Shown here in pieces: positions 24,707 through 34,059 of a stretch of 64,000 nt of DNA (position 1 is the stretch's first letter; each line of letters starts with the position of its first letter). The notes beneath the pieces were generated by a model. It had not been told where the DNA came from. It worked only from the letters and a program-made list of their open reading frames with translations, and made no database searches. Position numbers and translations under genes: made by a program. Source of the DNA: an uncultured Phascolarctobacterium sp. (GTDB lineage Bacteria > Bacillota > Negativicutes > Acidaminococcales > Acidaminococcaceae); assembly GCA_947630795.1 (NCBI GenBank), contig CANRJC010000004.1, positions 62,001-126,000 on the forward strand, in the 5' to 3' direction.

Positions 24707-24735
24707 TTGACAAACGCTTTTGAAAAGACTACCAT
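24707..24735 (+). promoter_or_regulatory. Promoter of the glutamine synthetase leader
   Basis: Consensus TTGACA (24707-24712), 17-base spacer, TACCAT (24730-24735). Transcription should begin near 24742, just before the hairpin region. Confidence 0.7.
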
Positions 24736-24741
24736 AGTGTC

Positions 24742-24800
24742 CAGAAGCAACAGAGTGGTTGTGGGGCTCGTGCCCCGGCACTTGTTGCTTTTTTGTTTTT
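24742..24800 (+). promoter_or_regulatory. Conditional terminator/antiterminator leader of glnN
   Basis: Fold A is a terminator: AGCAACA (24746-24752) with TGTTGCT (24783-24789), AGTG with CACT, GGGGC with GCCCC, then a long T run (24789 on). Fold B competes for the same bases: hairpin GCAAC/GTTGT (24747-24762) closed by the hexaloop AGAGTG, followed by GGGG/CCCC around CTCGTG. A hexaloop with A at position 1 and G at 4 is the recognition pattern of ANTAR antiterminators; the second loop fits only at G4. The folds are seen in the sequence; protein control is inferred. Confidence 0.55.
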
Positions 24801-24866
24801 CCTTTTTTGGGGAGGGGGTTACTTCACTAACCCTGAGAAAATAAAAATGTTAGGGAGGTAATGATC

Positions 24867-26951
24867 ATGAATGTTCCGAAAACTTTCGGCAGTTTGGTAT
24901 TCAACGAGACAGTGATGAAGGACCGACTGCCCACCGCCACCTACAAAGCCTTCAAAGCGGCAGTGCTGGAAGGCAGGCCTTTGGATCTGCCCATCGCCAA
25001 CATCATCGCCAATGCTATGAAAGATTGGGCGCTGGAGCACGGCTGCACTCATTTCACTCATTGGTTCCAGCCCATGACCGGCATCACCGCGGAAAAACAC
25101 GAGAGTTTCATCACTCCCACCGTGGAGGGCCGGGTGATCATGGATTTCTCCGGCAAAGAACTTATCCAGGGCGAGCCCGATGCTTCCAGCTTCCCTTCCG
25201 GCGGCTTGCGTGCCACCTTCGAGGCCAGAGGCTACACGGCTTGGGACCCCACCAGCTACGCCTTCATCAAGGACGGCTGCCTCTGCATCCCCACCGCCTT
25301 CTGCTCTTACACCGGCGACGTGCTGGATAAAAAGACCCCGTTGCTCCGCTCCATGGCCGCCGTCAACAAAGCCGCTCTCAGAACGCTGAAACTTTTCGGC
25401 ATCGAGAGTGCTCAGGTGACCAGCACCGTGGGCTCCGAGCAGGAATATTTTTTGGTCGACAAAAAAATGTGGGCCAAACGTAAAGACCTCGTCTATTGCG
25501 GCCGCACTCTTTTCGGTGCCCGCTCCCCTCGCGGCCAGGAACTGGAAGATCATTACTTCGGCATGATCAAGCCCCGGGTGATGGCCTTCATGAAAGAATT
25601 GGACGAAGAATTGTGGAAACTGGGCGTGCTGGCCAAGACCGAGCATAACGAAGTGGCCCCCGCTCAGCACGAGCTGGCTCCCATCTTCACGTCCACCAAC
25701 GTGGCCAGCGATCACAATCAGCTGATGATGGAATTCATGAAGCGCATCGCTCAGCATCACGGCCTGATGTGCCTCTTGCACGAAAAACCCTTCGAAGGTG
25801 TGAACGGCAGCGGCAAACACAACAACTGGTCTTTGGCCACCGCCGAAGGCATGAACCTGCTGGACCCCGGCAAAGAGCCCTACAAAAATCTGCGCTTCTT
25901 GGTCTTCTTGGCCGCCGTTTTGCAAGCCGTCGATCTTCATCAAGATCTGCTGCGCATCTCTGTGGCCAGTGCCGGCAACGATCACCGCTTGGGCGCCAAC
26001 GAAGCACCTCCGGCCATCGTCTCCGTTTTCTTGGGCAGCGACCTCACCAACGTGTTGGAAGCCATCGCCGCCGACAAAGTTTACGAATCGGGAGCAGCCG
26101 AGAAGATGAAGTTGAGCGAGGATACCCTCCCCGCCCTGACCAAAGACAACACCGACCGCAACCGTACCTCTCCCTTCGCCTTCACCGGCAATAAATTCGA
26201 GTTCCGTATGCCGGGCTCCAGCTTCTCCATCGCCGGCCCCAACATCGTTCTCAACACCATCGTGGCCGAAGCGCTGGACGAGATCGCCGGCAAACTGGAA
26301 GGCGCAGCCGATCTGGAGAAAGCTATCTACGGTCTGGTGAAAGAAATTTATTCGGCTCACAAACGCATCGTCTTCAACGGCAACGGTTACACCGACGAGT
26401 GGGTAGAGGAAGCCGAAAAGCGGGGCTTGTTGAACCTGAAGTCCACCCCCGAAGCGCTGCCCTATCTCTCCAGCGCCAAAAACGAAGCTCTCTTTGCCAA
26501 ATACAACATCTTCTCCAACTTGGAGCTGGAGTCCAGAGAAGAGATCCTGCTGGAGAACTACAGCACCATCCTGAGCATCGAAGCCCGCACCATGCTGGAG
26601 ATGCTCCACAAGGATATCCTGCCGGCCTTGGTGGCTTACGGCTTAGATCTGAGCAAAGCCGCCAACGACAAAAAGAAAGCCGGCATGAAACCCGGTCTTG
26701 AAGTCGCTTTGGGCGACAGGCTCTCCGTTATGAGCGCCGCCATTTACGCCAAGAGCGAAGCCTTGGTTGCGGCCATTAAAGAAACGGAACTTTTAGAAGA
26801 CAGCTTGGCCAAAGCAAAGGCCTATCACGACAAAGTGCTGGCCGCCATGGAAGAACTTCGGGCCGAAGTCGATCCGGCAGAAGAACTGCTGGGCGAAAAA
26901 TATCTGCCCTATCCCACCTACGGCGAACTGCTCTTCGGCGTCAACGACTGA
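24867..26951 (+). CDS. glnN: Type III glutamine synthetase
   Basis: 694 residues from ATG 24867, 7 bases after GGGAGGT; an ATG at 24861 is too close to that site. GSIII features are clear: large size (types I/II have 350-470), FGSLVFNETVMKDRLP at the N-terminus, the catalytic-site stretches GSEQEYFLVD, KTEHNEVAPAQHELAP, and NGSGKHNNWSL, and the Arg-containing FRMPGSSFS. The enzyme makes glutamine from glutamate, ammonia and ATP, probably as dodecamers. Its leader has a terminator with an alternative hairpin, and the ammonium transporter follows, so the pair forms a nitrogen-scavenging unit. Confidence 0.95.
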   Translation: MNVPKTFGSLVFNETVMKDRLPTATYKAFKAAVLEGRPLDLPIANIIANAMKDWALEHGCTHFTHWFQPMTGITAEKHESFITPTVEGRVIMDFSGKELIQGEPDASSFPSGGLRATFEARGYTAWDPTSYAFIKDGCLCIPTAFCSYTGDVLDKKTPLLRSMAAVNKAALRTLKLFGIESAQVTSTVGSEQEYFLVDKKMWAKRKDLVYCGRTLFGARSPRGQELEDHYFGMIKPRVMAFMKELDEELWKLGVLAKTEHNEVAPAQHELAPIFTSTNVASDHNQLMMEFMKRIAQHHGLMCLLHEKPFEGVNGSGKHNNWSLATAEGMNLLDPGKEPYKNLRFLVFLAAVLQAVDLHQDLLRISVASAGNDHRLGANEAPPAIVSVFLGSDLTNVLEAIAADKVYESGAAEKMKLSEDTLPALTKDNTDRNRTSPFAFTGNKFEFRMPGSSFSIAGPNIVLNTIVAEALDEIAGKLEGAADLEKAIYGLVKEIYSAHKRIVFNGNGYTDEWVEEAEKRGLLNLKSTPEALPYLSSAKNEALFAKYNIFSNLELESREEILLENYSTILSIEARTMLEMLHKDILPALVAYGLDLSKAANDKKKAGMKPGLEVALGDRLSVMSAAIYAKSEALVAAIKETELLEDSLAKAKAYHDKVLAAMEELRAEVDPAEELLGEKYLPYPTYGELLFGVND

Positions 26952-27105: not shown

Positions 27106-28776
27106 ATGGACAAATTCGTTTCCGTCGACACTATTTGGGTCCTCATCGGCGCCTTTTTGGTCTTCTCCATGCAGCCCGGCTTCGCCATGGTGGAGACCGG
27201 CTTCACCAGAGCGAAGAACGCCGGCAACATCGTGATGAAAAATGTCATGGACATTTGCTTGGGGTCCATCGTCTTTTGGATCTTGGGCTTCGGCCTCATG
27301 TTCGGCGAAGACATCTGCGGTCTCATCGGCCGGCCGGACTTTTTCATCAGCGGTGATTACAGCGGCAGTTATCCTTCTTCCGCTTACATCATCTTCCAGA
27401 CCATGTTCTGCGCCACCAGCGCCACCATCGTCAGCGGCGCCATGGCCGAGCGTACCAACTTTTTGGTCTATTGCATTTATTCTATAGTGATCTCCGCTTT
27501 GATCTACCCCATCTCGGGCCATTGGATCTGGGGCGGCGGCTGGCTGGCCGAAATGGGCTTCCACGATTTTGCCGGCTCCACCGCCGTGCACATGGTGGGC
27601 GGCGTAGCCTCCCTCATAGGCGCTTGGATGATAGGCCCTCGTATCGGCAAGTACAATGAAGACGGCAGCGTCAACGCCATCCCCGGCCACAGCATCCCTC
27701 TGGGCGCTCTCGGCGTCTTCCTCCTCTGGTTCGGTTGGTTCGGCTTCAACGGCGCATCTACCGTTTGCGCTTCCGGCGATGCCGTGCTCACCAGCATGGG
27801 CGATATCTTCATCACCACTAACTTAGCAGCCTGTGCCGGTGCCACCGCCACCATGATCTACACCTGGGTACGCTACGGCAAGCCCGATGTGTCCATGACG
27901 CTGAACGGCGTCCTCGCCGGTCTGGTCGGCATCACCGCCGGCTGCGACCTGGTATCCCCCGCCTCTGCCGTCCTCATCGGTCTCATCTCCGGTGTGATGG
28001 TAGTGGTCGCCGTCGAATTCTTCGATCAAAAATTGAAGATAGACGATCCTGTGGGCGCCATTTCGGTACACGGCGTGTGCGGCGCCCTCGGCACTTTGCT
28101 CACCGGCCTTTTGGCCAAAGAGAACGGCCTCTTGACCACCGGTCAGAGCGAGCTCTTCTTAACTCAATGCGTGGGCGTGCTCACGGTGGCCGTTTATGTA
28201 GCCGTTGTGATGTTCGTCATCTTCAAAATTTTGGACAAGCTCTTCGGCCTCAGAGTGAACGAAACTGAAGAGGTGCGGGGCTTGGATATGGAAGAGCACG
28301 GCCTGGCCAGCTCCTACGCCGACTTCATCTCCACCGACAACCCTGCGGTCACTTCTTCTTATGTGGCTCCTGTGCCGACTGCGGCCGCTGCTCCTCTTCC
28401 TCCCGACGGCCACAAACTCACCAAAGTGGTCATCATCACTTCGCAAAATCGTTTCGAGCTTTTGAAAGAAGCCATGGACAGACTGGGCATCACCGGCATG
28501 ACCGTCACCAAAGTGCTGGGCTACGGCATCCAAAAGGGAGCCACCGAAATGTACCGCGGTGCCGAAGTTGCCGCTCGCTTGCTGCCCAAGGTGAAAGTTG
28601 AACTGGTAGTCTCCGCCATTCCCGTAGAGACCATCGTCAACGTGGCCAAGCAGGTGCTCTACACCGGCCGCTACGGCGACGGCAAGATCTTCATCTACAA
28701 CGTGGAAGACGTAGTGAAGATCCGCACCGGTGAAAACGGCTTCGATGCGCTGCAGGACAAACCCATCGACGGCTGA
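27106..28776 (+). CDS. Ammonium transporter fused to a PII signalling domain
   Basis: 556 residues from ATG 27106 (GAGGGG 8 bases upstream; a TTG at 27100 is too close). Residues 1-395 are an Amt/Rh channel with about 11 membrane helices: FSMQPGFAMVETGF, FVSGAMAERTNF-like phenylalanine-gate region, GGVASLIGAWMIGPR, and SVHGVCGALGTLLTG with a pore His. After a Pro/Ala linker, residues about 436-549 form a PII (GlnB/GlnK) domain: T-loop GYGIQKGATEMYRGAE (about 473-488), VELVVSA, and the ATP-binding GDGKIFIYNVED.. IRTGENG. The free PII normally plugs the channel; here it is tethered. The position of the uridylylated Tyr51 of E. coli PII is Val. It lies downstream of glnN behind a conditional terminator. 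Confidence 0.93.
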   Translation: MDKFVSVDTIWVLIGAFLVFSMQPGFAMVETGFTRAKNAGNIVMKNVMDICLGSIVFWILGFGLMFGEDICGLIGRPDFFISGDYSGSYPSSAYIIFQTMFCATSATIVSGAMAERTNFLVYCIYSIVISALIYPISGHWIWGGGWLAEMGFHDFAGSTAVHMVGGVASLIGAWMIGPRIGKYNEDGSVNAIPGHSIPLGALGVFLLWFGWFGFNGASTVCASGDAVLTSMGDIFITTNLAACAGATATMIYTWVRYGKPDVSMTLNGVLAGLVGITAGCDLVSPASAVLIGLISGVMVVVAVEFFDQKLKIDDPVGAISVHGVCGALGTLLTGLLAKENGLLTTGQSELFLTQCVGVLTVAVYVAVVMFVIFKILDKLFGLRVNETEEVRGLDMEEHGLASSYADFISTDNPAVTSSYVAPVPTAAAAPLPPDGHKLTKVVIITSQNRFELLKEAMDRLGITGMTVTKVLGYGIQKGATEMYRGAEVAARLLPKVKVELVVSAIPVETIVNVAKQVLYTGRYGDGKIFIYNVEDVVKIRTGENGFDALQDKPIDG

Positions 28777-33710: not shown

Positions 33711-34059
33711 TGGTGGAGATGAGGGGAGTCGAACCCCTGTCCGAAAACATTGCCATACAACTTTCTCCGAGCGCAGACGTCATATTTTGTTTCGCCACCC
33801 TCCTGCCTGACGACGGGCCGAAGGATCGGCTATCTCGATAGATTTCCCTTCAGCCTCCGAGAATCGGCTGAAGGTGAGCCTGTGTAGTGACTGCCTCGCC
33901 CTACCCGCAGGCAAAGCGGAGCGGACAGTTAGCAGTTAAGCTGCTAAAGCGTAGTCTTCTTTTGCGTTTATATTTAAACGTTCCGCCTTTTAACGTGGCT
34001 GCGGGTCCACGGCTCGCTTATCGTACGACACCTATCCCCGTCGAAACCAGTACATCCCC
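33711..34059 (-). ncRNA. ssrA: Transfer-messenger RNA
   Basis: 349 bases. The 5' GGGGATG pairs with the 3' CATCTCC before encoded ACCA (7-bp acceptor stem, one G-T). The 3' end holds the T arm GGGGTTCGACTCCCC. The tag frame reads Ala-Lys-Glu-Asp-Tyr-Ala-Leu-Ala-Ala-stop (around 33930-33959), ending in the ALAA degron. Several pseudoknot-like inverted repeats follow. tmRNA rescues stalled ribosomes and tags the nascent chain for proteolysis, together with SmpB, encoded 84 bases upstream; RNase R of the same cluster degrades the non-stop mRNA. Confidence 0.95.

Follow-up and report, generated by a model that had tools for sequence, protein, structure and literature searches.

A leader with one hexaloop upstream of glnN is a probable ANTAR-controlled transcription attenuator in Acidaminococcaceae

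Type III glutamine synthetase is encoded by glnN, and in the 64-kb stretch of DNA analyzed here (the window; G000:C4:62001-126000 of a 1.91-Mb genome) this gene is preceded by a promoter and a leader that can apparently adopt two structures. The question raised by this locus is whether the leader is a switch and, if so, which factor operates it. The preliminary description of the locus proposed an ANTAR-type antitermination leader with two hexaloop hairpins; glnN is a nitrogen-related gene, as expected for a target of such a leader. The closest named relative of the gene product is a glutamine synthetase of an Acidaminococcaceae bacterium (71% identity; L002), and the leader of L002 is identical to leaders of genomes in the family of the window, which we therefore take to be Acidaminococcaceae (Bacillota, Negativicutes).

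Two mutually exclusive folds upstream of glnN

The promoter named in the preliminary description, TTGACA/TACCAT, was confirmed (Table 1), and the transcript is expected to start near 24742. Translation of glnN probably starts at ATG 24867 rather than at ATG 24861 because the ribosome site lies 8 nt from the former and 2 nt from the latter. Between the terminator and the ribosome site, the sequence contains another hairpin, and several relatives show, by eye, a similar GGGG-TTAC..GTAA-CC hairpin. The gene on the 3' side of glnN (window positions 27106-28776) encodes an ammonium transporter (PF00909, 7e-127) with a fused C-terminal P-II signaling domain (PF00543, 4.3e-23).

Table 1. Coordinates of the leader, the adjacent glnN elements and the associated small-RNA loci (window positions, unless a contig or locus is named)
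Feature	Position	Strand	Basis or remark
glnN promoter, TTGACA (24707-24712), 17-nt spacer, TACCAT (24730-24735)	24707..24735	+	10/12 consensus positions; kept at the same place in relatives
Intrinsic terminator, 5' arm AGAAGCAACA.AGTG (24743-24757) x CACTTGTTGCTTTT (24779-24792)	24743..24792	+	fold, covariation
Antiterminator hairpin GCAAC-AGAGUG-GUUGU, predicted ANTAR binding site	24747..24762	+	fold, conservation
Hexaloop AGAGTG, A1 and G4	24752..24757	+	G4 in 31/31, A1 in 23/31 (G in 8) distinct family leaders
GC stem-loop GGGGC-UCGU-GCCCC, terminator apex, no hexaloop	24763..24776	+	fold
U-rich termination tract	24789..24799	+	sequence
Hairpin GGGTTA-CTTCAC-TAACCC	24816..24833	+	sequence
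glnN ribosome site TTAGGGAGG with ATG 24861 and ATG 24867	24850-24869	+	sequence
glnN, type III glutamine synthetase	24861..26951	+	GSIII_N, E 2.4e-77
Second ANTAR-type leader (L173)	G000:C10:88225-88274	-	leader model; beside a convergent mnmA-like gene
Short C-rich RNA gene, seed CCCCTCATTTGGC	G000:C15:17598-17614 (L221 around 397)	+	own promoter and terminator
Palindromes	L191, L205, L210, L216, L220 around 1500; L162, L168, L178 upstream of leader		

The strong terminator reported before glnN was borne out: positions 24737-24799 are predicted to fold into it with an energy of -26.7 kcal/mol (z -3.46), and none of 200 shuffled sequences was equally stable. When the 3' arm of the terminator is left out, the predicted fold consists of the GCAAC-AGAGUG-GUUGU hairpin and the GC hairpin, in agreement with the earlier claim that the same bases alternatively form a GCAAC/GTTGT hairpin, with A1 and G4 in its loop, next to a GC hairpin. 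The 5' arm of the terminator is built from the hexaloop hairpin's 5' strand plus its loop; these two folds are therefore mutually exclusive, whereas the GC stem-loop is compatible with either. It is with the first hairpin, rather than with a second, that the terminator overlaps. If the full leader is made to form the hexaloop hairpin, its energy is -19.0 kcal/mol, a penalty of ~7.7 kcal/mol, which makes the terminator the default state; on this folding model, a bound protein would need to cover this cost or else act on the nascent chain. The hexaloop hairpin lies at the extreme 5' end of the transcript, with position 24747 located ~12 nt past the end of the -10 box (24735).

The leader and its regulator across the family

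An Rfam scan of the window detected only tmRNA and no ANTAR family, and we therefore built our own leader models; the tmRNA gene occupies window positions 33711-34059 on the minus strand (203.7 bits). With a leave-genus-out model (26 sequences), the glnN leader of the window was the top match in its own genome (E 2.6e-6). Among the 59 genomes of the family, 41 contain glnN, and nearly all leaders examined share the same design, whether glnN itself or a glmS-glnN operon follows directly. Two model matches were rejected: R1 in G044 (C111), with a broken hairpin, and R3 in G012 (C22), which sits after a tRNA and lacks the hexaloop hairpin.

Alignment of 31 distinct family leaders, collected with a search expression that contains the stem CAAC/GTTG and G4, supports both folds. 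In the terminator, 85% of the cells are paired compared with 34-70% when the arms are slid, and two-sided changes occur at 8 of the 13 pairs (45 such cells vs 16 in shuffles). The stem CAAC/GTTG and G4, both part of the collecting expression, are invariant in all 31 leaders; position 1 of the loop is a purine, and positions 3, 5, and 6 are variable, with an entropy of 1.4-1.9 bits. Because the collecting expression had fixed the stem and G4, we also ran an expression with loop length and sequence left open, and every six-base loop that it returned carries G at position 4. Because the terminator leaves the GTTG strand unpaired, the conservation of this strand speaks for the hairpin. The preliminary description expected the hexaloop hairpin to covary among relatives; this did not hold within the family, where the stem is invariant, but did hold among Clostridia, where the stem covaries. 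Neither this check on relatives nor the one on the ANTAR protein, both named beforehand as possible grounds for refutation, went against the ANTAR reading.

In the 79 more distant glnN loci examined, the loop motif CAANGGNG was found upstream of the gene in 53, with 72 matches against 6.6 expected. The bases flanking the motif, which lie outside the search pattern, are paired in 74% of the cells compared with 54% in shuffles (0 of 2000 as high); in the Clostridia, unrelated stems carry the loop A-A-N-G-G-N. A scan selected for stems detected an A1/G4 hexaloop overlapping a terminator arm in 38 Clostridia loci; two of these contain a second A1/G4 loop, which looks like chance. The terminator of the Clostridia uses the 3' half of the loop along with the 3' strand of the hairpin, whereas that of the Acidaminococcaceae uses the 5' strand. 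The Clostridia loci, too, are of the single-hexaloop form; therefore, glnN leaders as a rule carry a single hexaloop, and they do so in two forms that mirror each other.

Four genomes of genus g8 (L117, L118, L119, L120) have the Clostridia form of the leader, with the loop AATGGC, and a second, more distant ANTAR gene adjoins glnN there; the pair could have been acquired together by transfer. In genus g14 (L084, L085, L087, L088), an extra, structured-looking stretch of ~150 nt (GTGCAACGAAGCACCGGG...GCGGTGCTTTC) without an Rfam match separates the terminator from glnN.

A search of the genome for the regulator invoked in the preliminary description identified exactly one ANTAR gene (73 bits; G000:C8, about 83.6-84.2 kb). 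The encoded protein combines a receiver (REC) domain, with D56 as the phosphate acceptor, and an ANTAR domain, and matches over its full length the putative antiterminator 1S8N (5.8e-54) and EutV (6WSH; 1.1e-45). The adjoining gene encodes a PdtaS-like kinase with GAF_PdtaS, HisKA_2, and HATPase domains. According to excerpts of PMC8934654, the EutV residues that touch or position the RNA are R142, K143, K147, K149, Y164, and M172; these align with R143, K144, K148, K150, Y165, and M173 of the regulator, and all residues checked are kept. EutV action on eutP depends on two closing pairs, AC/GU (excerpts of PMC3369931), and the hexaloop of the glnN leader is closed by the same two pairs.

The regulator and the leader tend to occur together. 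The ANTAR gene is present in 46 of the 59 family genomes; both this gene and glnN are missing from nine genomes of g2 and three of g15. At a cut-off of E below about 1e-4, leader matches were found in 38 of the 46 genomes with the ANTAR gene and in 1 of the 13 without it (Fisher p 1.2e-6, a value inflated by shared ancestry, the related genomes not being independent). The exceptions are G019, which has a leader without an ANTAR match, and eight ANTAR-encoding genomes without a match to the type-A leader, four of them with the Clostridia type. In genus g17, glnN and the ANTAR gene often share a contig and are then no more than about 8 kb apart. The leader in this genus (L174, L175, L176, L181) also precedes glmS and a diaminopimelate-type aminotransferase gene (both named by eye), so that the regulon is larger there.

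As originally described, the leader would be a canonical dual-hexaloop ANTAR target with the GC hairpin as the second site. Indeed, the first stem-loop is followed by a second that shares bases with the terminator, and the loop of this second one, when written as the six bases CTCGTG, has G4 and lacks A1, as had been noted. However, C1 and G6 of this loop pair, which leaves a UCGU tetraloop, and the second stem-loop of the relatives has unrelated loops, mostly, of 4-5 nt. The linker between the first hairpin and the GC stem-loop is 0 nt compared with 5-12 nt in the eut leaders, where shortening to 3 nt abolished most of the induction and where EutV of Enterococcus faecalis requires both hairpins (excerpts of PMC3369931). 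A partner on the other side is no better accommodated: the hexaloop hairpin begins so close to the -10 box that the predicted transcript starts leave no space for an upstream hairpin. With essentially one hexaloop in the 31 family leaders and the 38 Clostridia loci, the dual arrangement fails, and its realization in this leader is highly improbable. Because the defining tests of the two hexaloops and the linker fail, we file the leader as a single-hexaloop variant; what stands of the original proposal is ANTAR antitermination, with the regulator, the conserved hairpin, A1 and G4, and the nitrogen target all in place.

A different explanation is that the attenuator is constitutive and protein-independent, or responds to some other factor, such as a small RNA or another RNA-binding protein, and resembles an ANTAR site by chance. 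The terminator alone accounts for much of the sequence conservation in the 5' arm, but not for the invariant GTTG, which it leaves unpaired, nor for a G4 that stays constant while its neighbors vary. The leader also tracks the ANTAR gene, and the Clostridia keep the A-A-N-G-G-N loop on unrelated stems, and we regard this explanation as unlikely. The strong fold would also fit a simple promoter-proximal terminator without a regulatory role; however, in the relatives examined, this terminator sits between its own conserved promoter and glnN or the glnN operon, and a purely passive role is scarcely credible.

The explanation that we favor, with a probability of about 0.85, is attenuation of glnN transcription under ANTAR control, through a leader with one hexaloop; as an RNA site, the leader is very probably an ANTAR target of the single-hexaloop kind. 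By default, the nascent RNA would fold into the terminator and glnN would be off. The PdtaS-like GAF/HisKA_2 kinase would phosphorylate the REC-ANTAR regulator, the signal probably being nitrogen supply, and a dimer of the regulator would bind the AGAGUG hairpin as the RNA emerges from the polymerase and hold it. A single held hairpin should suffice against termination because its 5' strand and loop make up the 5' arm of the terminator, and glnN would then be transcribed, activation being the presumed direction of control.

A second switch and a putative small-RNA partner

The leader model also found leaders without a gene behind them, in 12 genomes from four genera (g1, g9, g14, g18), including the genome of the window. 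In order, these loci comprise a promoter, a hexaloop with A1 and G4 (12/12), and a terminator, followed by a structured RNA that measures about 150-190 nt and has its own terminator. In the genome of the window, the second leader is a weak match (E 0.16 with the leave-genus-out model), and its counterpart at the homologous place in a sister species scores 2.8e-5. The structured RNA of the window's genome has a fold z-score of -7.4, to which the terminator contributes part. The fold shared by nine members consists of a closing stem plus a small and a core hairpin; 89% of its cells are paired compared with 48% or less when slid, and three pairs are changed on both sides. A model of this RNA gave clear matches only in g9, g14, and g18, in every case directly after the switch; the g1 members, which have diverged, came to light through the leader. 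Weak matches (R2) in the neighboring family f4 do not hold the core and were discarded. The structured RNA has no Rfam match, and it is not 6S RNA: it does not match RF00013, and 6S RNA maps elsewhere in the genome (G000:C1:85073-85259). To judge from Rfam, the structured RNA behind the second switch is previously undescribed.

The core of the structured RNA, GGCCAAAUGAGGGG, is the exact complement of a short C-rich RNA gene of the form CAUCAAAACAGCCCCUCAUUUGGCCCUU..AAGGGCUUUUUUU, which in several genomes lies downstream of a LytR/CpsA/Psr-like gene (named by eye). A search with the core pattern matched 51 of the 59 family genomes, and a seed search in a 300-genome sample of the class matched 50 genomes, nearly all from the Acidaminococcaceae; altogether, the C-rich RNA, which has no Rfam entry, is present in about 50 of the 59 family genomes. 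In G034, the terminator stem of this RNA is changed and the seed is not. The core and the C-rich RNA of the window's genome match over 13 bases (0 of 1000 shuffles as long), and in most genomes the duplex of the two small RNAs has a conspicuous energy (z -2.6 to -5.6). Both small RNAs have palindromes, TTGTATACAA or ATGTATACAT, within their promoters or close by; these may reflect a shared DNA-binding regulator.

These observations suggest, tentatively and at somewhat less than even odds, a two-output ANTAR circuit in which the switch releases both the glutamine synthetase mRNA and a structured sponge RNA that would soak up the C-rich RNA (seed CCCCUCAUUUGG). We treat the sponge as a hypothesis for several reasons: the perfect run between core and seed is only 7-8 bases in three members; in the window's genome, the core is paired within the predicted fold of the structured RNA; and in G026 (g9), the syntenic place carries a changed seed, CCTCTAATTTGG, that has lost pairing with the structured RNA of that genome. 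In g9, where both RNAs diverge, a search for compensatory change returned no matching partner within one mismatch, and, this being so and the G026 seed no longer pairing, there is no covariation proof of the RNA-RNA pairing. A seed match to glnN mRNA, considered as a target of the C-rich RNA, was supported only in genus g14 (z -2.0 to -5.2; z +0.5 in the window's genome). Furthermore, genomes that lack ANTAR contain the C-rich RNA as well, which thus has other work. If the two-output circuit is real, antitermination places a small-RNA sponge under the control of a two-component system.

Comparison with known ANTAR systems

The best match among known systems, as described in excerpts of PMC3369931 and PMC8934654, is EutV/EutW of E. 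faecalis. The eut leaders and the glnN leader share an A1/G4 hexaloop, AC/GU closing pairs, a competing intrinsic terminator, a REC-ANTAR regulator with the same RNA-contact residues, and a nitrogen-related target. The glnN leader differs in that it has one hexaloop instead of two and no linker, its kinase is PdtaS-like, and its hairpin itself overlaps the terminator, via the 5' strand and loop. A further close case is NitR of Clostridium saccharobutylicum, an ANTAR regulator that induces GS/GOGAT genes on nitrogen limitation (cited in excerpts of PMC6316151). Common to both cases is that ammonium assimilation in Bacillota, glutamine synthetase included, is under ANTAR-family control, which is probable in the present case; the species and the gene cluster are different, and the comparison covers the regulator and the targets. 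The present reading would extend ANTAR control of glutamine synthetase to many gut and rumen bacteria.

The EutV-RNA structure shows an ANTAR dimer bound to a single hexaloop at a time. The excerpted account (PMC8934654) takes one hexaloop as the newly defined minimal ANTAR site, does not settle why two should be required, and raises the extent of single-hexaloop use as a question. We found no description of a single-hexaloop attenuator in the ANTAR literature examined, which was available in part. Compared with that proposal, the glnN leaders represent a conserved class of single-hexaloop attenuators, a compact one in which a single hairpin at the 5' end overlaps the terminator in either of two mirror-image forms. 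Search models that require two hexaloops would miss such leaders, and a leader of only ~55 nt makes the question of one versus two hexaloops testable.

The second switch has its closest parallels in Rli55/EutX and the PPE1-5' RNAs, in which an ANTAR motif is likewise attached to a small RNA (excerpts of PMC8934654 and PMC8131098). Those RNAs titrate the ANTAR protein, whereas here the motif forms a switch ahead of a structured RNA that is separate from it and has a core complementary to a further small RNA. Should the linked RNA prove to be a sponge, it would represent a new kind of ANTAR output.
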